Positions 5,873-30,051 of a DNA stretch of 64,000 nucleotides are shown piece after piece. Position numbers and translations under genes: made by a program. Source of the stretch: Candidatus Krumholzibacteriota bacterium (GTDB lineage: Bacteria > Krumholzibacteriota > Krumholzibacteriia > Krumholzibacteriales > Krumholzibacteriaceae); the NCBI GenBank assembly GCA_016932415.1, contig JAFGCX010000020.1, positions 62,001 to 126,000 on the forward strand. Direction: 5' to 3'. Under the pieces are notes generated by a model that was given only the letters and a program-made list of their open reading frames with translations, had not been told where the DNA came from and made no database searches. Positions within the stretch are counted from its first letter, which is position 1, and every line of letters begins with the position of its first letter.

Positions 5873-8517
5873 CTGTTTTTCGTTTCTCGTCCGCTGTTCG
5901 CATCTCCCGGGCCTGTAATATCGATCCTTCCTATAAGGGTCCCGGAAAGAGAATCCCTGTTTCTCAGGTAGTCTTTTATCATTCTATTGGGTAGATACGT
6001 CTCCCTTCTGACGATCAGGCCGAGATCGTACCTGCCTGGAGCGATATTATCGGGGAGAACAAAAAAGAGACGCTGGCCGGAATCCTCGCCCGTGCCCCAC
6101 CTTTCCGGCATAGTAGAACCGCTTCTTATCATTCCTCCAGCGGTATACCTGTAAAATGTCCCTTTTTTTCTTTCAACTATACGCCTGTACTGTTTATCGT
6201 ACCATGGCCTGTAAAGACCGCCCTGGGGATAATCGCGGTCAAGCCTCAGGTTCCAGCTGCATGGAAGACCCGGCTTGTAAGATTCCCCGGCATTCCAGCA
6301 GAAGATCCCCCTCACTGTATCTCCCGCGACTACTTCCCTTTCTTCGAGGACCAGTGAAACGAACCTTATGCCTTCCCATTCCGCCGCCTTTTCAAACCGG
6401 TTCATGCCCTCGCCGAAAATGCAGCATTCCTTCCGTGCCTCGCTTTTTACCTCGCCCACATCATTTTTCATCTCGTCAAGGAACCTGATATTGAGTTGAA
6501 ACAGTATATACCTCTCTCTTTCGCCTTTCCTGACGAACAGGCCGGGATATCTCGAGATCTTTTCAAGAAACGCCGGGACAATCTCCGCCGGAACGGCCTC
6601 AAAGAAATCGACCATCGTTTCTCCGCCGGTATCGACAACCAGGTACCTTATATCCTTTTCCATAAGCCATGCCGCGCTCTCAGAAAGGGGAAGAGCGGGA
6701 TCGAAGAGATTTCTGACGGCCGATATCCTTTCAAGAGCTTCACCGTCGCAGGGTGATCCATGTTGACCGAGCGTGACTACGGCGAAACAGTCTGTGTATG
6801 CCGAAAGCAGGTAACTCGTCGCTGGATCGGAGATCACTACCGACCCTTCAGGGAGTTCCCTGGTCAACTCACAGAGGATATCGCCCCTCTCAAGACTCGA
6901 CTCCGGATCTGTAAGCAGTATTTTCTCCGTTTCACTCATTATTCCTGAAATTGCGAACCTGAGAGGAAGAGCGGCGAAGAGAAAGATCAGAAGAAGAGAC
7001 AATACGCGGGCCGCGACTGTCCTGGCTTTCCAGGATCGCTTCTCTCCTGATACCGTCCCCATTATGATGAGCCTGCATAGATAATATATTATCAGAGCGA
7101 GCAGGCCGGTCGACGGAGCGGCATAGACCAGTCTGTAGAAAAGATAACCAAGGTGGCTCTCGAGAGGCGTAGCGGTAAGAGGATTTATCACCGCCAGAAC
7201 CGGAACGAGAAAAAGTACGCCGGCAAGTAGAGGCAGTCCCTTTTTCTCCCTTATGAAAAAGACCAGCGGGGACGCGATTAATATGAAAAAGAAAACCAAC
7301 CCCATCTGGCTCATGAGCTCGATCGGATCGACTGTCAGAAACTTCTCTCCGAGAAGGAGGAGGCCCTGCCTGTGCGTGTGTATGATGTTATACTCTCCCT
7401 GTACCATCGATATCCTGGCGATCACCGCCGCCGCGGTGACACCGGCCAGCACAGGGACTATTACCCTGAACCCCCGCATCCATCTTCTGCCGGCTGGAAG
7501 AATGACTCCATAGATAAAGAAAGAACCGAGGATGCCGAACATAAGATACGCGAAGACGATGTGATACGCGATTCCCGTCACGACAAGAAAGACCGACAAG
7601 ATCAGATCGCGCCTTTCCTTCAATCGCAGGTACCTGATCAGGTATCCGGTCGTACCCCACATCATCACTATCGCCAGGTTCTTGCTGTACCCGATCCTGG
7701 TGAGCCACGCGATGCCGTTCCCCCTCATGAACAGGACAAAAAGTATCGAAGCCAACAGAGTCAGCCTTATCGTTCCGAGAAGCTCCTTTGAATAGAACCA
7801 GAAAACGGCCAGGGCGAAAAATGCCAGAAAAGAAGGGATCATCGACCAGAGATCGTCCGGCGCGGCATCAGCCTGGTATGCCCAGAGGGAAAGCACCGGA
7901 TGCCACAATCCCTTTCTTGGATCGAATCCTGTCCCATCTCCCTCCCTGAAAAAAGAATCGTCTGGAAGGATCGTCCCGCTCTCGATAGACCTGCGGATAA
8001 AACTGATATGATCAGGCGCGTCGGTGGAAATACCAAGCTCGCCGCTTTGATCGAAAAACACGAAACAGAGGATCATCATGACAAGGATGATCGCCAGCAT
8101 CGCTCTTTTTTCTCTGGCCGAAAGTCCAGTATCCTCTACAAAGTAGGGCCTGATACGCTGGTTGACCTTTTCGTCGTTTCTCCTGATGTGCATGTGGTAA
8201 TAGAGGATCAACACGACCGTGACTGCAGAACAGGCTGTCGATATACCGGCATATCCCGTTCCAGGCAGAAAACCGAGAGTGACGATGAACGTCGCATAGA
8301 TGATCCCGCTGAAGAAGACCCTGCAGACTCCCTCTACAGTCAGCGGGACGGAACCGGAACGGATCAGCGTGATATAGATCCCCGGGAGAACGAATAACGA
8401 AAGGAAAGCCAGGATCAACCCCACTGGCGCGGGACCCGGGATGATGCGGGCACCGACCAGAAAAGAAAGGATTATTAACGAAATGCTCAACGTGAGGAAA
8501 AACGCTTTGTTCTTCAA
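5869..8517 (-). CDS. large polytopic membrane protein, GT-C-like glycosyltransferase or EPS polymerase/ligase
   Basis: The 882-residue protein has roughly a dozen hydrophobic segments in its first 530 residues, followed by about 350 hydrophilic residues. A large acidic stretch after the early helices (GISTDAPDHISFIR) resembles the D-x-D/E region in the first external loop of GT-C enzymes. The sequence ELPEGSVVISDPATSYLLSA is like the extracytoplasmic domain that follows the helices in many such enzymes. The last 170 residues look like a beta-sandwich. It starts at TTG 8517 with GAGGAG nine bases upstream. It sits next to a polyprenyl-phosphate-sugar-synthase-like GT2 and a small flippase, which fits a GT-C transferase using a polyprenyl donor. 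No separate Wzy is seen in the operon, so a polymerase role is also possible. Confidence 0.65.
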   Translation of the reverse strand: MKNKAFFLTLSISLIILSFLVGARIIPGPAPVGLILAFLSLFVLPGIYITLIRSGSVPLTVEGVCRVFFSGIIYATFIVTLGFLPGTGYAGISTACSAVTVVLILYYHMHIRRNDEKVNQRIRPYFVEDTGLSAREKRAMLAIILVMMILCFVFFDQSGELGISTDAPDHISFIRRSIESGTILPDDSFFREGDGTGFDPRKGLWHPVLSLWAYQADAAPDDLWSMIPSFLAFFALAVFWFYSKELLGTIRLTLLASILFVLFMRGNGIAWLTRIGYSKNLAIVMMWGTTGYLIRYLRLKERRDLILSVFLVVTGIAYHIVFAYLMFGILGSFFIYGVILPAGRRWMRGFRVIVPVLAGVTAAAVIARISMVQGEYNIIHTHRQGLLLLGEKFLTVDPIELMSQMGLVFFFILIASPLVFFIREKKGLPLLAGVLFLVPVLAVINPLTATPLESHLGYLFYRLVYAAPSTGLLALIIYYLCRLIIMGTVSGEKRSWKARTVAARVLSLLLIFLFAALPLRFAISGIMSETEKILLTDPESSLERGDILCELTRELPEGSVVISDPATSYLLSAYTDCFAVVTLGQHGSPCDGEALERISAVRNLFDPALPLSESAAWLMEKDIRYLVVDTGGETMVDFFEAVPAEIVPAFLEKISRYPGLFVRKGERERYILFQLNIRFLDEMKNDVGEVKSEARKECCIFGEGMNRFEKAAEWEGIRFVSLVLEEREVVAGDTVRGIFCWNAGESYKPGLPCSWNLRLDRDYPQGGLYRPWYDKQYRRIVERKKGTFYRYTAGGMIRSGSTMPERWGTGEDSGQRLFFVLPDNIAPGRYDLGLIVRRETYLPNRMIKDYLRNRDSLSGTLIGRIDITGPGDANSGRETKNR

Positions 8518-8566
8518 GGCAGCGGACTCCTCGATTCTGAGAGCGTGTCGGCCACTATTTCCAATA

Positions 8567-8935
8567 TCAGTTATATGTCCTGCTTACCAGGAAGACTCCG
8601 GCACAGATGACAATGATACCTATGAATCTCTGGATCGAAAATGACTCGTTAAGCAGATATGGCGCGAGCAGCGCCGTGATCACGTACGAGAGGCTCACCA
8701 TCGGGAACGCCCAGCTCAGTTCCGAACGCGACAGGATCAGTATCCATAGGACAGCGCTCAGCGCGTACGAAGTGAATCCTCCTATCACGTACCATGATGT
8801 AACGACCTTCTGAAAGGCTTCGACAATATTCCCAAGCCCGATCTTCCCTATCCTGTTTATTCCAGCTTTCATCATAAACTGGCCCGCTGTATTCAGGACG
8901 ACTGTAGCCATGATCATAATCAGGTTTTTAAGCAT
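8567..8935 (-). CDS. EamA/SMR-type four-helix transporter, ArnE-like
   Basis: This is a 122-residue protein of four transmembrane helices with the EamA/small-multidrug-resistance pattern: GQFMMKAGI in helix 1, an ALSAVLWILILSRSELSWAFP loop-helix region and a C-terminal GIIVICAGVFLVSR helix. Relatives of this size (ArnE/ArnF) flip undecaprenyl-phosphate-linked aminosugar. ATG 8935 follows GGAGGG. Its position between a GT2 and a GT-C-like protein supports flipping of a polyprenyl-phosphate sugar rather than drug export. Confidence 0.72.
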   Translation of the reverse strand: MLKNLIMIMATVVLNTAGQFMMKAGINRIGKIGLGNIVEAFQKVVTSWYVIGGFTSYALSAVLWILILSRSELSWAFPMVSLSYVITALLAPYLLNESFSIQRFIGIIVICAGVFLVSRTYN

Positions 8936-8970
8936 ATTCAGGGCCCTCCAGTGCGGTCACCCGCGAAGAT

Positions 8971-9654
8971 CTACTTTTTTGCCGGTCTGAAACGTAATTT
9001 CACAAGATAGAGAAGATTCTCGAAACCGTCTTTCCATTTGTTCAATTTGACCTCGCCGACGCGAGGATGATAATTGACATTGTACTCGTCGAACCTGATC
9101 CCCGGATGTCTTATCGCGGCGATCTTGATCTCTTCGCTGAGGGGCATCCCGTCGCTCTGAAGACCGAGTCTGGGATAGATCTCGCTCTTATATATCCACA
9201 TCCCCGATTGCGAATCCCTTATCGCGTGCGCGAAAAGTATCAGCGTCCCCATAGTTAGGACCCAGTTGCCGACCTTGTTTGAAAAATTCATCGATTTCTT
9301 GTCTTTCAGTGGAAAACGAGAAGCTGACACGAAATCGAGATCCTTGTCTATCAGGTGATCGATGCATTCTTCGATCTGTTCGACGGCGTAAGTCCCGTCG
9401 CCGTCCATCGTCACTGTTATATCACCGGTGACGGCAGGTAGTCCGGCCTTGTACGCCGCCCCGTACCCCTTCTTTTTTTCAAAGACGACGCGGGCTCCGA
9501 GCCCTTTCGCGACTTCGGCTGTCCTGTCGGTCGAATTGTTATCGACGATTATGACCTCATCGACCGATTCGGGAAGAGATGGTATTACCAGCGCTATCCC
9601 TTCCTCTTCGTTGAAACACGGAATAACGACCGATATTTTCTTTTCACGATACAT
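8971..9654 (-). CDS. GT2-family glycosyltransferase, polyprenyl-phosphate sugar synthase-like
   Basis: A 227-residue GT-A enzyme begins ISVVIPCFNEEEGI and carries EVIIVDNNSTDRT and the metal-binding TVTMDGDGTY (DGD) motif. It has the DPM1/DPG-synthase layout without C-terminal membrane helices. Such enzymes transfer a sugar from a nucleotide donor to dolichyl- or undecaprenyl-phosphate. The GDGTYAVEQIEE segment after the DxD is characteristic of that group. Together with the small flippase and the GT-C-like protein downstream it forms a plausible sugar-decoration module. It lies 12 bases from the flippase Wzx gene. Confidence 0.82.
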   Translation of the reverse strand: MYREKKISVVIPCFNEEEGIALVIPSLPESVDEVIIVDNNSTDRTAEVAKGLGARVVFEKKKGYGAAYKAGLPAVTGDITVTMDGDGTYAVEQIEECIDHLIDKDLDFVSASRFPLKDKKSMNFSNKVGNWVLTMGTLILFAHAIRDSQSGMWIYKSEIYPRLGLQSDGMPLSEEIKIAAIRHPGIRFDEYNVNYHPRVGEVKLNKWKDGFENLLYLVKLRFRPAKK

Positions 9655-21655: not shown

Positions 21656-21940
21656 TTATTCCTCCCACTTCACCTTCTTCTCAAGCTCTTCCATATAACC
21701 CTTCTGCTTCTCTTCGTACGCCTTCGATATGGCGGAGAGTTTGGGGTTGATTATTTTTACCATGACAAATATTAGAACGATACCTATAGCCAGGAGGGCA
21801 AATCCGAGCGGCATCAAAAGGGCGCTCAACGCTCCCCCTATCAGTATGAGAACGTATATTACAGGTGAGATAATCACCGTCACAGTATCGTGGATCGTCC
21901 ATCTCTCAGCTTCATCGCTTGTCCATTCTTTTCTGAACAT
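21656..21940 (-). CDS. small two-helix membrane protein next to the symporter
   Basis: About 94 residues: an acidic/tryptophan N-terminus, two adjacent helices (TVIISPVIYVLILIGGALSALL and GFALLAIGIVLIFVMVKII) and a C-terminal charged helix likely to form a coiled coil (AYEEKQKGYMEELEKKV). ATG 21940 has GGGAG at a good distance; ATG 21949 is too close to it. No family recognised. It lies 77 bases after the symporter and may be part of its operon. Confidence 0.62.
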   Translation of the reverse strand: MFRKEWTSDEAERWTIHDTVTVIISPVIYVLILIGGALSALLMPLGFALLAIGIVLIFVMVKIINPKLSAISKAYEEKQKGYMEELEKKVKWEE

Positions 21941-22025
21941 CAAGATCATCTCCCTGGGTGATTGATATCAAAACAGGCGACATCTATTGTATTCCATTTT
22001 CTCCGCTCGCCGGAGCGATCGTTCC

Positions 22026-23591
22026 TCATAACAATCCGCGCTTTTGCGCTTCCCGCCTTACCGGGCCCCACCAGCCGACAGGCCGTGACATGACATAGAA
22101 CTTGACCAGCCTGTCCATCTTCTCCGGTTTCGTGAAGAATGTCACCGGGATGAAGACAACGGCTCCGAGAAGCATCAGGAGCCAGAACTGGTGATAATCC
22201 TTCAGCTCGGGCAGAATCCCGAACGCCGGAAGCACCCAGACGACAAGCCACGAAAAAACGAGGTTCGAGACCCAGGCGGTCAGGTACCCCCAGCCGTTGA
22301 ACCTCCACCAGACGACCTGTAGTATCCCCGGAAGCCATATACCCGCCGCCATTATCCAGAGGGCGAAGATCAGCCACTCAGTGATATTCTCCATTATGGA
22401 ACCGAAGATAAAAGATCCAGCGAGCAGTATCACAGTCCCTATCCGTCCGACCCTGACAAGCTTTTCCTGGGTCGCCTGAGGATTGATGTAGTGGTGATAA
22501 AGGTCCCTTGTTATATAGACCGCGCCGAGATTCAGATGCGTAGATATCGTCGATATATGTATCGCCACTATGGCGGCGAAGAAGAACCCTATCATCCCCG
22601 CGGGCAGATTCTCGAAACCGAGCCGGAACCAGCCCATCTCGTAATCTTTCACATCGCTGAGGTTCGGATAGAGGACGAAAAAGGCGAGGATCGCGGCGCC
22701 CCATAGGGCGTTCCTGAAGATGACGAGAGCCGACCCTGCCCATATCGACCATGACGCGTCCTTGACCGTTTTTGCAGACTGGATCCTCTGCGCTTCGGGA
22801 AACCAGTCTATCGCGGTTCCCATGCCGAGTCCGCCAAGTATTCCGATAAACAGCATCGTCAGAAACCAGACCATCGGAAAATCTCCGCTGAGAAATCCCG
22901 TGAAATTGAACGGGTTGAGCCTTCCCGCCTCTCCCATCACCTCAAGCTTCGAAATTATTCCCGCCGCTCCGCCGGCAGCATGGATCCCCCAGAAGGAGAC
23001 TATGATTATCACTATGAAAGCGATTACTCCCTGCTGGAAATCGGCCATCACGACCCCCCAGTATCCAGCGGCAAGAACATAGACGGCGCAGACTGAGGAA
23101 AATACTATAAGGCCTATCCAGAGCGGCCAGCCGAACATGAATCCGCAGACCTTCCCCATAGCTATACCGACCCAGCCGAGGATAAACATATTGAGAAAGA
23201 CCTGCCAGCCCGCTACCCAGCCGCGGAGCAGCTCGCCAGACATCCCGCCGAAACGCTGAGACTGCCACTCGGCCTGCGTGTAGGCGAGAGAACGCCTGAA
23301 TATTTTAGTCGATACAAAGGCGCTGATCGCGCACCAGGCCGAAAAAAAGGTGTACCAGAGGCCGGCGAGGCCGAACCTGTATACAACTCCCGAGACCCAC
23401 ATCGGCGTATCGGTCGCCGTATGCGTAGCATATACGGAAGATGCCGGAAGCCACCACGGCAATCCCCTGCCGGCAAGGAAAAAGTCCGCCTCGGATCTCT
23501 TGCCGAGCCTGTAGAACCTCACTCCGCTTCCTACCATCAGCACGATGAACGCTATCAGCCAGAACCAGTCGAGAAAGCTGAAAACGACCAT
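22026..23591 (-). CDS. sodium:solute symporter (SSS family)
   Basis: The protein has 521 residues and about 13 hydrophobic helices, matching the SSS (SLC5-like) fold that couples sodium entry to uptake of sugars, amino acids or organic ions. Typical early features are RSEADFFLAGRGLPWWLPASSVYATHT and, later, FFAAIVAIHISTISTHLNLGAVYITRDLY, the TM8 sodium-site region. It starts 22 bases after the GH92 mannosidase gene, so a sugar released by that enzyme is a reasonable but unproved substrate. Confidence 0.87.
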   Translation of the reverse strand: MVVFSFLDWFWLIAFIVLMVGSGVRFYRLGKRSEADFFLAGRGLPWWLPASSVYATHTATDTPMWVSGVVYRFGLAGLWYTFFSAWCAISAFVSTKIFRRSLAYTQAEWQSQRFGGMSGELLRGWVAGWQVFLNMFILGWVGIAMGKVCGFMFGWPLWIGLIVFSSVCAVYVLAAGYWGVVMADFQQGVIAFIVIIIVSFWGIHAAGGAAGIISKLEVMGEAGRLNPFNFTGFLSGDFPMVWFLTMLFIGILGGLGMGTAIDWFPEAQRIQSAKTVKDASWSIWAGSALVIFRNALWGAAILAFFVLYPNLSDVKDYEMGWFRLGFENLPAGMIGFFFAAIVAIHISTISTHLNLGAVYITRDLYHHYINPQATQEKLVRVGRIGTVILLAGSFIFGSIMENITEWLIFALWIMAAGIWLPGILQVVWWRFNGWGYLTAWVSNLVFSWLVVWVLPAFGILPELKDYHQFWLLMLLGAVVFIPVTFFTKPEKMDRLVKFYVMSRPVGWWGPVRREAQKRGLL

Positions 23592-23612
23592 TGATCCTCC
23601 TTGTTATCTACT

Positions 23613-26600
23613 CTACTGCCTGTCGACCGTTATCTCGTCGATGAATATCCAGGACCTGCTGCCCTCGCCTGGATGGCCCGGCGGACATACTCCTATGTTC
23701 TCCGCTCTGACCCTGACATACCTCGCGCGCACGCTGAGGTTTTTTGAACGAGCCTCCCATATTTTTTCATCATCCGGTTCTTCGTTGAAAGGATTTTCAA
23801 TCTCTCCCGCGTCGCTGAAGCTCTCGCCGTCAGAAGATACCGCGAATCCGACTCTTACCGGCAGAAATATCCAAGCTCCTGGATCGTTCATGAAACCGGC
23901 TGATATTTTCTTTATATCGATTTCTTTTCCAAGATCGATCACTGCTTCTAAATCGATCCCCTGGTATCCCTGCCATCCCCCGGTTCGAAAATCCTCGCCT
24001 CCCCTGATCTGGTCGACAAGCGCGAGCGGGCCTCCGCCGGAATAAAGAGGACTGTATTCTCCCGTGAGCTTGACGAATATTCCCTCCTTGATCCGGGTAA
24101 AGTGGCTCATGAGCGTTCTGCTCCCGATCATCCCGGTTTTGTACGCGGCTGCTTTAATAGTGGAAGTCTCTGTTATAGTGAACGGTTTCCCGTACAGCCT
24201 TGACTCCGGTCCAGGCTCGCTGCCATCGGTGGTATACCTGATTTCCGCCTCATTCTCGGCGCATGAAAAGGAGAGAGTCAGGCTCCCGGTAAAGATCCTC
24301 CCTGAGGTATCTATCACCGGAGACGGACAGACGATCTCTTTCTCTATCCGGGATATGGGGACGTTTCCTTTTCCCATCCCCCAGGAATAGGAAGGCTCGG
24401 GACCGAGTTCGAGTTCCAGGGCGCCGCCGTGGACGATATCCCGATGCGAGATGAACGACCTGTCGTACTTCTTGCCGTTAAGGGTGGCAGATCGTATATA
24501 TATGCTCTCTGGCGTATCCCTTCGCGCCGATACGATGAATGACTTTCCATCGCTGAGTTCGATCTCAGCCTTATCAAAGAGAGGCGAACCGATAATATAA
24601 ATATCATCTCCGGGAGTTACCGGATAAAAGCCCAGAGCGCTCAGCACATACCAGGAAGACATCTGCCCGCAGTCCTCGTTGCCGCAAAGACCATCCGGTT
24701 TGTCGCCGTACATCGTGTCGATGATCTCCCGCACTCGCCTCTGCGTCTTCCAGGGGGAGCCGGTGTAATTATACAGGTAAGCCATATGCTGACTCGGTTC
24801 GTTCCCGTGGGCGTACTGCCCGATCAGGCCTGTGACATCAGGTTGATCGAGGCCTTTCAGATCGCTCCTTTGCGCGAAGAGAGAATCGAGTTTCGCTTCG
24901 AGCTCCGCCATCCCTCCATGCAGCATCGCAAGTCCGCTTATATCCTGCGGAACGTAGAAGCTGTACTGCCATGAGTTAGCCTCGGTGTAGTGGAAATTCA
25001 CCTCGGCTGGATCGAACGGCTCGATGAAAGCGCCGTTGAGCCTCGCTCTCATAAACCCGGTCGCCGGGTCGAAGAGGTTCTTGTAGCTCTGCGCTCTCCT
25101 GAGAAACTTCGCCTCGACATCGGCGCGGCCCATGGCTCGCGCCATCATCGCGATGCACCAGTCGTCATAAGCGTATTCGAGAGTCCTCGACACCGACTGC
25201 CCGGCATCCTCGGAAGCTATGAACCCGTTCGCCTTGTACGATTCGAGACCGAGATGATCCTGGCTGGCGCTCGATATCATCGCCTCGAGAGCAAGCTCTG
25301 AGTCAAAATCATCTATTCCTTTTATATATGCGTCGGCAATGACGGGGACGGCGTGATACCCTATCATGCAACCCGTCTCGTTAGCGCCGAGTTCCCACAC
25401 CGGCAAGGCGCCTCCCTCTTTGTACTGCCTGAGGAATGTCTTCATAAAATCGACTGTCCTTTCAGGCTCTATTATAGTAAAAAGAGGATGAGCGGCCCTG
25501 TACGTATCCCATAGAGAAAATACGGTGTAATATTCGAAATCATCAGTGCTGTGTATCTTAAGATCCCTTCCCCTGTATCTTCCATCGACGTCGCTGTAGA
25601 GATTGGGAGCAAGAAGGGAGTGATAAAGAGCGCTGTAGAATGTTCTCTTCTGACTCGTGTTACCCCCCTTGACTATTATCCTGCTGAGAGATCGGTCCCA
25701 TTCAGCAAGCGCTTCTCTCGCTGTCTCATTGAAATCCCAGTCGGGGAGTTCGGCATCGAGATTTCCCCGGGCCCCTTCTATGCTGACGGCGGATATCCCG
25801 ACCTTTACGAACAGAACACCTCCGTCGCCTGGATCGAATGTGAACCACCCTCGGAGATCCTCACCGGATATTTCCTTCACCGTTTCCGACGCCGGATCGC
25901 CGCCTATTGATAAGGCGTGTCTAACGATCGGCCGCGAGAACCTCGCAACGAAATAGACATGCTGATCTTCGGCCCATGCCCTCGATCTTCTGAACCCAGA
26001 GATTTCCGTGGAACTGTTTATATATATGGCCGAATCAATGACCTTGTCCCTATGCGCCAGGTCTATTACTATCGCCTCTCCCCTGCCCTCGGGATAGCTG
26101 TAGTGATGGAATCCGCATCTTCGAGTCGCTGTGAGCCTTACACCGATATCGTGGTCATCAAGATATACCGAATAGAATCCCGGAAGAACCGTCTCGCTCG
26201 AGTGGTCGAAACGAGACCTGTACCCGGCTTCCCCGTCAGCACCGTTTTCCAGTGACGGCTTTGTCTCCGGCGGGTCCAGCGGAATACTTAACGGCATCAG
26301 GAGGATATCTCCATAGTCGGAGCAGCCAGTTCCACTCAGGTGCGTGTGGCTGAATCCGTAAATATAATTATCAGAGTAATGGTACGCCGAGCACCCGTCC
26401 CATCCTGTAAGCCTCGTGTCTGGACTGAGCTGCACCATGCCAAAAGGGATGGTCGCTCCGGGATAGGTGTGGCCGTGGCTCCCCGTGCCGACGATAGGAT
26501 CGGCGAGGACGGCGAATCCCAGGTTGCTTGTCAGGAGGCCTGCCAGTTCCGCGGTACTGGATTGAAACAGATCCTTACCTTGAATGATGGCGCCAGGTTC

Positions 26601-26690
26601 TTTACTCATAGAGGGAACCGGCGTAATTCCCGAAAGAAGAATGGACGAAACCGCGACTAAACAGAAGGCTAAGCGGAATTTACCTGTCAT
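23613..26690 (-). CDS. secreted GH92 alpha-mannosidase with C-terminal accessory domains
   Basis: This 1025-residue protein has a signal peptide (about 1-28). The GH92 N-terminal beta-sandwich domain begins near IPFGMVQLSPDT (81-92), and the (alpha/alpha)6 catalytic domain contains LWDTYRAAHPLF, ANETGCMIGYH, GNEPSQHMAYLYNYTG and CGNEDCGQMSSWYVLSALGF, all GH92 hallmarks. It is followed by a chitobiase-type beta domain (RYTTDGSEPGPESRLYGKPF) and a discoidin-like domain (GWQGYQGIDLEAVIDLG). GH92 enzymes are calcium-dependent exo-alpha-mannosidases. The accessory domains suggest binding to glycan surfaces. It is adjacent to a symporter gene. ATG 26690 follows GGGAAGGG. Confidence 0.93.
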   Translation of the reverse strand: MTGKFRLAFCLVAVSSILLSGITPVPSMSKEPGAIIQGKDLFQSSTAELAGLLTSNLGFAVLADPIVGTGSHGHTYPGATIPFGMVQLSPDTRLTGWDGCSAYHYSDNYIYGFSHTHLSGTGCSDYGDILLMPLSIPLDPPETKPSLENGADGEAGYRSRFDHSSETVLPGFYSVYLDDHDIGVRLTATRRCGFHHYSYPEGRGEAIVIDLAHRDKVIDSAIYINSSTEISGFRRSRAWAEDQHVYFVARFSRPIVRHALSIGGDPASETVKEISGEDLRGWFTFDPGDGGVLFVKVGISAVSIEGARGNLDAELPDWDFNETAREALAEWDRSLSRIIVKGGNTSQKRTFYSALYHSLLAPNLYSDVDGRYRGRDLKIHSTDDFEYYTVFSLWDTYRAAHPLFTIIEPERTVDFMKTFLRQYKEGGALPVWELGANETGCMIGYHAVPVIADAYIKGIDDFDSELALEAMISSASQDHLGLESYKANGFIASEDAGQSVSRTLEYAYDDWCIAMMARAMGRADVEAKFLRRAQSYKNLFDPATGFMRARLNGAFIEPFDPAEVNFHYTEANSWQYSFYVPQDISGLAMLHGGMAELEAKLDSLFAQRSDLKGLDQPDVTGLIGQYAHGNEPSQHMAYLYNYTGSPWKTQRRVREIIDTMYGDKPDGLCGNEDCGQMSSWYVLSALGFYPVTPGDDIYIIGSPLFDKAEIELSDGKSFIVSARRDTPESIYIRSATLNGKKYDRSFISHRDIVHGGALELELGPEPSYSWGMGKGNVPISRIEKEIVCPSPVIDTSGRIFTGSLTLSFSCAENEAEIRYTTDGSEPGPESRLYGKPFTITETSTIKAAAYKTGMIGSRTLMSHFTRIKEGIFVKLTGEYSPLYSGGGPLALVDQIRGGEDFRTGGWQGYQGIDLEAVIDLGKEIDIKKISAGFMNDPGAWIFLPVRVGFAVSSDGESFSDAGEIENPFNEEPDDEKIWEARSKNLSVRARYVRVRAENIGVCPPGHPGEGSRSWIFIDEITVDRQ

Positions 26691-26950
26691 GCCCTTCCCC
26701 CGATCGCCTGGAAAGATATCCGACCACCTAAAGAACCGGGTCTGAACTATTGATCTTACGCTTTCGGATTATGATTCAGATCATCGATGAAAGTCCAGAG
26801 ATAACATCGCTGTCAGAACAGATTAAAAGCAGGGAAGATCAAAATCGTTACGTTATCAAACCAGCAATGATAAAGACGATAACGACGCTCATAAACTCAA
26901 CGATAAGTAATAAGATAATATTTTGCCCGTTCATACCGTCACTGCAAATA

Positions 26951-28103
26951 TCATTCAATAACAGTGAATTTGGCAATTTGTGTCGTTGATTCTCTGGTTC
27001 GTCTGTCCATTACTGTTACTGATAATTGAAATATTCCTCCCCGGAGTTCTTTTGCGTCAAATTCGATACGTTCCCGTTGTGTTTTTCCATAAGCTGACGT
27101 TTCATATTTAACTGATACCAAGACCTTCTCCCAAAGGCTTGATGAGGTTGCTGATTCTGTAACTCCCGTTACGATTTGAAATAAGGTCTTTAGCCTTTAA
27201 ACAGATCCGGTAGTATCCCGGATCCAGAGTAAATGTAAACTGGGCTGGAATGAGTGATGTTTTTTCAGGATTCAATCCTTTGAACGATAAACTCGTTTTC
27301 TTTTTCGCGGATACAATTTCATTCATTTCCATATCATGAATGCTGACAAAAAGTTCAAGCCGTGAATGACATTCTCAATTTTCCTCAGAATAAGTCAGCT
27401 CGGTTGTCGGTATTTCCAAATTCACTTCCGCTTTGACCTTGCCAGGGCCACCTCTGAAATGTACTATATCGAAGTAAAAATCAATCAGACCAGATATCAT
27501 TTAAAAGATAATTCCCGTTTCTATTCAACATATCTCTCATATTTCGATCGACAGTAAATATCTCCATATTGTATATGCACTCACCATCGAGCTTGACCTG
27601 TTCAAATGGGACAATGAGGCCTATCAAATGATAATACCATACTTCACCAGGCTTTTTTAAACGGAAATAATCTACACTTTGCTCCAGCGAAACCAGGTCG
27701 GCATCGACTCGATTTATCTGATCCGGTTCACCGAACCTGATCAATGTTTCCCCTCTGTGGTCCAGACCTGGAAATGTTTTTTTAGGATATTGCTCCTTCG
27801 CAATCCTGACCCTGTTCTCATGTTCAATTCTTCGTTCATTTGCTTTTGTACTGGGAATCGGATCATTCATTTTCCAGAATTTAATTATCCAATTCTCCCT
27901 CGCTGACCGTGTTCCAAGAGTAAGATATTGCCTTTTTTGGTATTTATTCAGTAGGAATCGTAATCCCTGATAATATTCTCTTTCCGGTTTACTCAAGAGT
28001 TGAAACAGCTCTTCTTCATTGAAAGCAGAAAGATTTTCATTGGTTGAACAAGTAGCGCAGCAGGAAGAATGATGATCAGGTATAGTGAGAATATGATTTT
28101 CAT
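26951..28103 (-). pseudogene. broken gene for a GWxTD-domain lipoprotein
   Basis: The pieces of one protein can be followed in three frames. ATG 28103 gives a signal sequence (MKIIFSLYLIIILPAALL). After a frameshift near 28050 come CSTNENLSAFNEEELFQLL and the GWxTD core (FWKMNDPIPSTKANE… and GLDHRGETLIRFGEPDQI). A stop and frameshift at about 27484 lead to FYFDIVHFRGGPGKVKAEVN. An in-frame TGA lies at 27375-27377, and a last frameshift near 27110 leads to the C-terminal beta segment ending FQLSVTVMDRRTRE…FTVIE at TGA 26951. GWxTD proteins are exported proteins of unknown role common in FCB and Acidobacteria. At least four lesions make loss of function nearly certain. It begins 34 bases after an attC-like repeat. 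Confidence 0.8.
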
Positions 28104-28137
28104 TCCAATGTATTCCAATAGTTTCAATAGTACTTTC

Positions 28138-28267
28138 GTATAACGTTGTGTGAGCTTGCGGCGCGGCCGCAATCCCCTATCGATATATCACCATGCACTC
28201 AAGCTCCGCGCGGCCGTAACAGCCGAGGCTGCGTCAGCAGCCGAGTGTGCAAATGCATCTGTTATGT
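28138..28267 (-). repeat. attC-like 130-bp structured repeat, copy 1
   Basis: On the - strand it begins ACATAAC and ends CACAACGTTATAC, matching the outer boxes of integron attC sites (…AAC at the start, G-TTAT-x-C at the end). It contains two internal hairpins: TGCGGC/GCCGCA with a three-base loop and GGCTGC/GCAGCC with a four-base loop. It shares length (130 bp) and most of its sequence with copy 2. It begins 14 bases after the stop of the upstream membrane-protein gene and ends 34 bases before the ATG of the GWxTD pseudogene, as in cassettes. Confidence 0.6.
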
Positions 28268-28281
28268 ACTTTACACGGATC

Positions 28282-28674
28282 TCATTGTTTATCTCGAGCT
28301 TTATACGCTCGAAGTTCCACTATCATCAGCACTATTATGATTAAGAATATGATCAGTTGAGGGAAAGCGATCCGAATCACAATTAAGTCAAACAGCAATC
28401 CAACCAATATAAATGTAAAAATATTGAGAATGATAATCCCGACTGGTATCCAAGATGCAACCCCACGCAGCTGAACACGATTCAACCCTCTCAAGAATTG
28501 CAGTAAGCCTACCCCAAGCAGTATCACCCCACCCTGGTAGATCATCACTCGGACAGAACCAATTATGGCAGGATCATCAAGATGTTTCATCAGTTCGGGA
28601 ATCTGCGATACCTCTCCGAATATTATATGTACAATACCAATGAGTAATATCAGGATTCCTGTCAGAATTGCCAC
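28282..28674 (-). CDS. four-helix membrane protein in an integron-like cassette
   Basis: The 130-residue protein has four hydrophobic helices: ILTGILILLIGIVHIIFG, MIYQGGVILLGVGLLQFL, WIPVGIIILNIFTFILVGLL and LIIFLIIIVLMIVE. No family is recognised. The start GTG 28674 has AGGAGG four bases upstream; a longer frame from 28725 would begin inside the repeat and is less likely. The gene lies exactly between two attC-like repeats, 33 bases after one and 14 before the other. Codon use is more AT-rich than in its neighbours, in keeping with transfer. Confidence 0.6.
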   Translation of the reverse strand: MAILTGILILLIGIVHIIFGEVSQIPELMKHLDDPAIIGSVRVMIYQGGVILLGVGLLQFLRGLNRVQLRGVASWIPVGIIILNIFTFILVGLLFDLIVIRIAFPQLIIFLIIIVLMIVELRAYKARDKQ

Positions 28675-28707
28675 TTCTCCTCCTATAAGTGATGCACCGT
28701 CTATAGC

Positions 28708-28837
28708 GCATAACGTTGTGAGCATTTGCGGCGCGGCCGCAATCCCCTATTTATCTATCACCAAGCACTAAGTTCGGCCGGCCGTGACTGCCGAGTCCTG
28801 GCATCGCCAGGCGAGTGCGCAAATGCCTCTATTTACG
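28708..28837 (-). repeat. attC-like 130-bp structured repeat, copy 2
   Basis: On the - strand it ends CGCAAATGCTCACAACGTTATGC, with a perfect GTTATGC end box. The inner arms GAGGCATTTGCG and CGCAAATGCTC pair except for one extra G in the left arm, like the extrahelical base of attC. The other end (CGTAAAT) has lost the AAC box. Internal hairpins sit at the same places as in copy 1; the second stem is CCTGGC/GCCAGG here, so both sides have changed together. Copies are 570 bp apart. Confidence 0.6.
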
Positions 28838-28947: not shown

Positions 28948-30051
28948 CTACCGCATAACACCCGAATCCTTGAGGATCGAGAGCAGCTTTTCCGCTGTCC
29001 TTTCAGGATTGTGCATTGATCTCACAAGCCCCACACCGTTTCTGGAAATAACGTTTCTTTTCTCTCTGTCAGATCGAAGCGTTTCAATAGCCACGGCCAG
29101 TTTTTCCGGCTCCCCCTTCGGTACGAGTAATATATCTCTGTCCGCTCTGAAGAGCTCCCTGATCGCCGGAGTATCTGCCGTGATGACTGGCCTTCCCGAA
29201 GCGATCCCCTGAAAGACCTTGTTCGGGATGACCAGTTCGGTCTTGGGAGTCGTCCCGAAGATACCGAGAACCAGGTGATGATCGCGAATCAACTGGCTGA
29301 GCTTATCCGGCCGGACATATTCCCTGAAAATTATCTTCTCTTCAGGAAGACCTCGCGCGAGTTCTCTTGCGATAGAATATGTCTGCCCGCCTCCGACCAT
29401 CGTGAATGATACTGGACTCTCCGAAAGATGCCTTGCCGATTTGACGATCGTATCGACGCCGTGAAGAGGCAGGTAAGAACCGTAGAAGAGGACCCTGAAA
29501 GGTTCCGATTCGGGGGGTTCCTCGCACAGACCGAATTCCCCATCGTCGAATCCGACGTACAGGGTCTTTATCTTTCCCCTGTCGATACCGAACTCTTCTG
29601 AATAATATCGCGCGTGAGCGTCCGTGTCGGCGATGACAAGATCAGCCATCTTCATCGAGGTCCTGTCCAGATTCCTGTTGTGCCACGATGCGGGCGTACC
29701 CTCGGTGGCGTCTTCCCTGTCGAGCACCCTTGTAGCATACCTCGAGACGAGGGGATCGAAGACGACCTTCTTCCCCGACATCCTTGCCAGAAACCACGCG
29801 AGAGGTACATCCTTGTGCCTGAATTCGGGGACAAAGAACACTTCTCCCCTCTCCCTTGTCCCGAGATACTTCGCGGTAAGGCACGGATATCTTGTGATCA
29901 CTCTGGACTTCCAGTCGGCGTGGCACTCGTCCACCCTGACACCGATCTTTCGGAGCCCTTTTCTAATGATCCTGTTTCTCGGATATTCCTCGTCGTACCC
30001 CCCGAAAAAGAGGATTGAATTATTCCCGCTGCCATCTGATATGCCAGTCAT
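28948..30051 (-). CDS. GT4-family glycosyltransferase
   Basis: The 367-residue GT-B enzyme starts with an ILFFGGYDEEYPRNRI N-terminal strand and has the donor domain FRVLFYGSYLPLHGVDTIV, then KVFQGIASGRPVITADTPAIREL in the nucleotide-sugar site (a G-x-S-G-R-P variant of the usual E-A-x-A-x-G-x-P-V). It overlaps the next upstream gene by 4 bases and ends the LPS-core operon. The 3' end abuts the AT-rich island. Donor unknown. Confidence 0.82.
   Translation of the reverse strand: MTGISDGSGNNSILFFGGYDEEYPRNRIIRKGLRKIGVRVDECHADWKSRVITRYPCLTAKYLGTRERGEVFFVPEFRHKDVPLAWFLARMSGKKVVFDPLVSRYATRVLDREDATEGTPASWHNRNLDRTSMKMADLVIADTDAHARYYSEEFGIDRGKIKTLYVGFDDGEFGLCEEPPESEPFRVLFYGSYLPLHGVDTIVKSARHLSESPVSFTMVGGGQTYSIARELARGLPEEKIIFREYVRPDKLSQLIRDHHLVLGIFGTTPKTELVIPNKVFQGIASGRPVITADTPAIRELFRADRDILLVPKGEPEKLAVAIETLRSDREKRNVISRNGVGLVRSMHNPERTAEKLLSILKDSGVMR

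Follow-up and report, generated by a model that had tools for sequence, protein, structure and literature searches.

The established agent of gene-cassette insertion is the integron integrase, IntI. Its I2 domain has been reported as necessary for cassette capture, and deletion of the domain abolishes the function of IntI1 (PMC7790495); one survey took I2 as the definition of intI (PMC2426708). The question of which came first, the attC sites or the I2 domain, has been stated as a paradox (PMC4792948). Conservation of the insert in integron-like tyrosine recombinases has been noted as incomplete (PMC8138268). Among the closest described systems, CALIN (IntegronFinder 2.0, PMC9024848) have at least two attC sites in cassette geometry and no integrase nearby, while sedentary chromosomal integrons combine IntI (TIGR02249) with attC arrays that carry toxin-antitoxin-like and lipoprotein cassettes. 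Cassettes outside integron platforms, at genomic attG sites, are also known (Loot et al. 2024, as cited in PMC11023631).

The window considered here is a 64-kb stretch (G000:C20:62001-126000) of a 3.1-Mb draft genome in 38 contigs. The segment 28137-28837 of this window is, with high confidence, the relic of an integron array, isolated within a polysaccharide-synthesis locus and remote from any integrase, that is, a CALIN. This reading follows from a covariance model that finds both sites although it was built without them, from a homologous seven-site array in G001, the only genome of the same genus, from stem pairing above controls, from cassette spacing, and from the presence in the genome of both IntI and a second, insert-less tyrosine recombinase, labelled XIL here. 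The relic is a two-site attC cluster with one complete cassette, a class assigned with a home-made model, and its two sites are both imperfect. By itself, a two-site CALIN is ordinary. The coordinates are collected in Table 1.

Table 1. Features of the window locus, and XIL genes in this and related genomes (window positions unless a contig is given).
Feature	Position	Strand	Description	Basis
attC site A	28137..28268	minus	3' end of complete cassette	Covariance model R1 (site left out of model): 56.3 bits, E = 3.3e-13
Site A R' box GTTATACG	28144-28137	minus	Copy A ends ...ACAAC, then GTTATACG	
Site A R'' box ACATAAC	28267-28261	minus	Retained; 5 pairs	
attC site B	28707..28837	minus	5' side of cassette	Covariance model R1 (site left out of model): 77.1 bits, E = 9.7e-19
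Site B R' box GTTATGCG	28714-28707	minus	Copy B ends ...ACAAC, then GTTATGCG	
Complete cassette, 570 bp	28144..28713	minus	G/TT cut in site B to G/TT cut in site A	Sequence and geometry, R1 site boundaries
Cassette ORF, 130 aa	28282..28674	minus	GTG start 28674, AGGAGG Shine-Dalgarno, stop 28282	
GWxTD-domain pseudogene	26953..28104	minus	Directly downstream of site A	TIGR04514, 56 bits (cut-off 28)
Glycosyltransferase gene	28948..30051	minus	Borders cluster; conserved chromosomal neighbour, not cassette	Pfam; homologues in relatives
GTTATGCG in last glycosyltransferase codons	28952..28959	minus	Candidate 5' junction or landing site of cluster	
XIL, own genome	L014 (G000:C25) 135-968	minus	End of contig C25	
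XIL, G001	L074 (G001:C6) 8061-9026	minus	Heads G001:C6 array	
XIL, G020	L168 (G020:C1) about 6188-7009			
XIL, G008	L170 (G008:C30) about 6437-7207			

A first-pass annotation of the sequence had described two repeats of 130 bp lying 570 bp apart, and both the repeats and their start-to-start spacing of 570 are borne out. Over their first 63 nt the copies are 86% identical, and BLASTN aligns them at 80% over 127 nt (E = 5.6e-24). On the minus strand, both copies show the layout R''-L''-spacer-L'-R', with the GTT core of the cassette junction present in both R' boxes. The attC-like outer boxes claimed for the repeats are found in the R' of both copies and in the R'' of site A; the R'' of site B has been lost by mutation, reading GTAAAT (TAAAT instead of TAAC). 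The claim that the inner arms pair except for one extra G is exact for site B, in which GAG[G]CATTTGCG pairs with CGCAAATGCTC and a single G remains extrahelical, but the arms of site A pair with further bulges and are more disturbed.

Model R1 was built from the seven G001 sites and one site on contig C35 of the own genome, with no window site used. Over the 64 kb it returned exactly two sites, A and B, and none else, and chance is therefore excluded. A further model, R2, also scores site A at E 3.3e-13 or better. Rfam at its gathering threshold gave no match, and a scan with hand-written R and L boxes missed the window sites, its boxes being too strict. Judged on sequence, A and B are attC-type sites. 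The area is AT-rich, as had been noted, with a GC content of 0.38-0.43 over 26750-28750 against about 0.53 in the surroundings.

Between the sites lies the gene that the first-pass annotation had placed there as a membrane-protein gene, and its distances are as given: the ORF starts 33 nt inside from site B and stops 14 nt before site A. A longer reading from an ATG at 28725, within site B, is the alternative. The hydrophobic product probably has several membrane helices; it matches nothing in Pfam or NCBIfam, and the sole homologue match in relatives is weak and partial. The gene beyond copy A, which had been taken as further evidence of cassette geometry, has decayed into a GWxTD pseudogene that carries frameshifts and has lost two internal segments; an intact homologue in G012 aligns to it at 54-59% in three frames. 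The pseudogene was considered as a second cassette and rejected, since no third attC site was found behind it; thus, one complete cassette remains.

On the other side, the homologues of the glycosyltransferase in relatives adjoin heptosyltransferase-type genes. The copy of GTTATGCG in its last codons sits where a cassette edge would be expected; it was noticed post hoc, and the 16 occurrences of GTTATNYG in both strands of the 64 kb correspond to about 0.015 expected in a stretch of 122 nt. An empty site, reconstructed by joining the flanks, found no support and was not recovered.

The suggestion that an integron elsewhere left this pair behind as a lone attC cluster agrees with the distribution of this site family, which is arrayed on contig C35 of the own genome and in G001. 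Searching the whole genome for other copies of the repeat, as the first-pass annotation had advised, R1 finds four full sites, all adjoining short ORFs. BLASTN locates a further copy at the start of C35, where two ORFs, one of them of lipoprotein type, accompany a further full site at 538-659. On contig C6 of G001, seven such sites are spaced about 0.9-2 kb apart, each between short genes. The cassettes there (L074 242-6926) encode DUF4411 with an M78 peptidase, a zeta-toxin-like ATPase, an RNase T-type exonuclease and an outer-membrane barrel.

Across 28 sites of the family, 89% of the R- and L-stem cells are paired versus 20-47% when slid, and stem changes on both sides number 29 versus 10.8 expected by shuffling. 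Both figures come from an alignment fitted to the tested structure and biased in its favour, but the values for the slid and shuffled controls are much lower. The distant members in G020 keep the structure with little of the sequence, for example GCATAACAGCAGATATGCG...CGCATATCCGCGAAATGTTATATG and ATATAACAAGGCATTCCCG...CGGGAATGCCTGAAATGTTATGCG. Such conservation of structure over divergent sequence is typical attC behaviour. A second attC array was seen in G020 (C2, L177 8941-17058), a near-complete genome with only broken IntI fragments. A half attC, CATAACAGAGGCATTTGCGCACTCG, was also seen near contig ends in two further genera (L071, about 5071; L072, about 6474, minus strand), just ahead of an apparent tRNA gene 3' end.

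The reported lack of an integrase holds for contig C20, on which there is no integron-integrase match, but not for the genome. The recommended search for intI recovers an intact IntI on contig C17, scoring 455 bits against a cut-off of 265, with the contig ending 238 bp past the gene, and contig C25 carries XIL beside an attI-like core. Canonical IntI exceeds the cut-off in 26 of 58 genomes of the same class, so that integrases are common in a lineage in which integrons had been called little described; among open-licence papers, no literature on integrons in Krumholzibacteriota was found. The IntI of a Krumholzibacteriia MAG (L100) groups beside those of same-class genomes, which makes Krumholzibacteriota the likely phylum. 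In G054 (L067, G054:C4 10034-17312), an attC array lies behind a canonical IntI and shares the orientation of intI, which is the reverse of the class 1 layout.

XIL differs from IntI in its domain structure. The C25 protein scores 238 bits against the IntI model (TIGR02249), below the cut-off of 265, with positions 171-233 unmatched, and the IntI-specific I2 domain of about 40 aa is absent. Between the G.G.K.R and H.LRH motifs there are 100 residues in IntI, 59 in XIL and 65 in the measurable chromosomal Xer proteins. Of 80 genomes of the phylum, 8 carry XIL, every one of them from a single order, and the C25 copy is 82% identical to the gene heading the G001:C6 array. In trees computed without the insert columns, IntI forms one clade (100/100 or 100/99) that excludes XIL; the latter is placed near mobile-element recombinases that also have no insert, an exact position that is provisional because long branches were flagged in the first tree. 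XIL does not derive from an IntI by recent loss of the domain. Relatives on viral contigs and plasmids are 36-54% identical among the matches listed, and R2 found no attC beside the ten best viral-contig matches. On an Acinetobacter plasmid (L291 2543-4564), an insert-less recombinase with about 51% identity to XIL is the immediate upstream neighbour of tet(X3).

With respect to its origin, the window cluster probably arose by cassette insertion, through a recombinase whose gene lies elsewhere in the genome and which cut G/TT in the R' box (GTTATRCG), perhaps with the GTTATGCG at the glycosyltransferase 3' end as the landing point. The cluster would then have decayed, through mutation of the site B R'' box, disturbance of the site A arms and degeneration of the downstream gene, and the cassette is presumably no longer mobile. 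One candidate for the acting enzyme is the canonical IntI of C17, which is intact here and of the kind known to perform such insertions; the other, suggested by the site family, is the XIL of C25.

That XIL, and not IntI, placed these cassettes and generally maintains attC arrays in this order is a tentative proposal, plausible but falling a little short of probable. In all eight XIL genomes, the recombinase gene is followed by a conserved attI-like core, which reads CRCAAATAARCTGTTATNCG in most; between genera, this region is 79% identical up to GTTAT and 29% after it, where unrelated genes begin. Behind the gene, attC arrays are present in G001 (7 sites), G008 (4) and G020, a two-contig genome with about 12 sites over 18 kb, so that the integron parts seen at XIL loci are the recombinase gene and adjacent core in all eight and the array in these three. 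Close relatives of the window sites sit in the G001 array and share the GTTATNYG boxes, and the gene beside XIL in G001 has a homologue on contig C35 of the own genome. Furthermore, five of the eight XIL genomes yielded no intact IntI: it is broken in G008 and G020 and was not found in G014, G017 and G022. However, most of the genomes are drafts, and an IntI that was not found may lie in a gap. The intact IntI of the other three (G000, G001 and G007), which include the present genome, could act in trans. Finally, IntI1 is reported to need I2 for its activity (PMC7790495), and the activity of XIL is putative.

Several contigs end at these loci. In the own genome, contig C25 stops exactly at GTTATG next to XIL, and the contigs of G014, G017 and G022 end about 260-460 nt from it. 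The end of C17 and the starts of C25 and C35 (L013, L014, L015) likewise break at or near GTTA-type cores adjoining the recombinase genes. Contig breaks at cores are as expected of repetitive arrays, or of cassettes that vary within the population sampled.

An ordinary rearrangement, which moved an array-end piece together with the neighbouring GH92-transporter genes into the polysaccharide locus with no site-specific insertion, is rather doubtful. In G001, the counterparts of the GH92, transporter and small membrane genes (21656-26690) do lie apart from the glycosyltransferase, on contig C12 next to another attC array, and the rest of the locus is syntenic with G001:C7. Nevertheless, other genes separate GH92 in G001 from the nearest attC, over 5 kb away, and the core-like GTTATGCG at the glycosyltransferase end speaks against a mere rearrangement. 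The block itself, found in different places in the two species (L076 4318-9363 in the other), comprises a small membrane gene, an SSS-type transporter (94% identical) and GH92 (66%). An ordinary intergenic palindromic repeat with no relation to integrons is most improbable: the two copies are alike, whereas attC sites within an array often diverge, but the family lies at cassette ends in G001:C6 and passes gradually into the divergent, structure-conserved sites of G020, its full matches in the 3.1-Mb genome are only the four beside short ORFs, and the arrays already contradict such a reading.

Compared with known systems, the relic array in the window resembles CALIN (PMC9024848) in its site number, its cassette geometry and the lack of a nearby integrase, but it is minimal, its sites are decayed, and it was classed by a home-made model, not by that of IntegronFinder. 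Like the attG insertions (Loot et al. 2024, as cited in PMC11023631), its cassette lies outside a platform, beside a G/TT-like site; in the present case, insertion is inferred and the empty site was not found. As for insert-less integron-like recombinases, the available text of PMC8138268 describes no attC arrays headed by them, in contrast to XIL, and no description of such arrays was found among open-licence papers.

The window CALIN thus led to attC arrays behind a recombinase without the domain held essential for capture. Conceivably, and with nearly as much in favour as against, this order carries integrons with a working integrase that lacks I2 and does not descend from IntI, the window pair being a fossil of such a system. 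If so, attC-cassette recombination needs no I2 and could predate it, and an active XIL would provide a natural test of the paradox of attC versus I2 order (PMC4792948). Loci of the XIL type would be scored as CALIN or overlooked. Set against sedentary chromosomal integrons, the lineage shares attC arrays with toxin-antitoxin-like and lipoprotein cassettes as well as an intact IntI, on C17, whereas at the XIL loci the recombinase heading the array lacks the IntI-specific domain, and the array shares the orientation of its gene.
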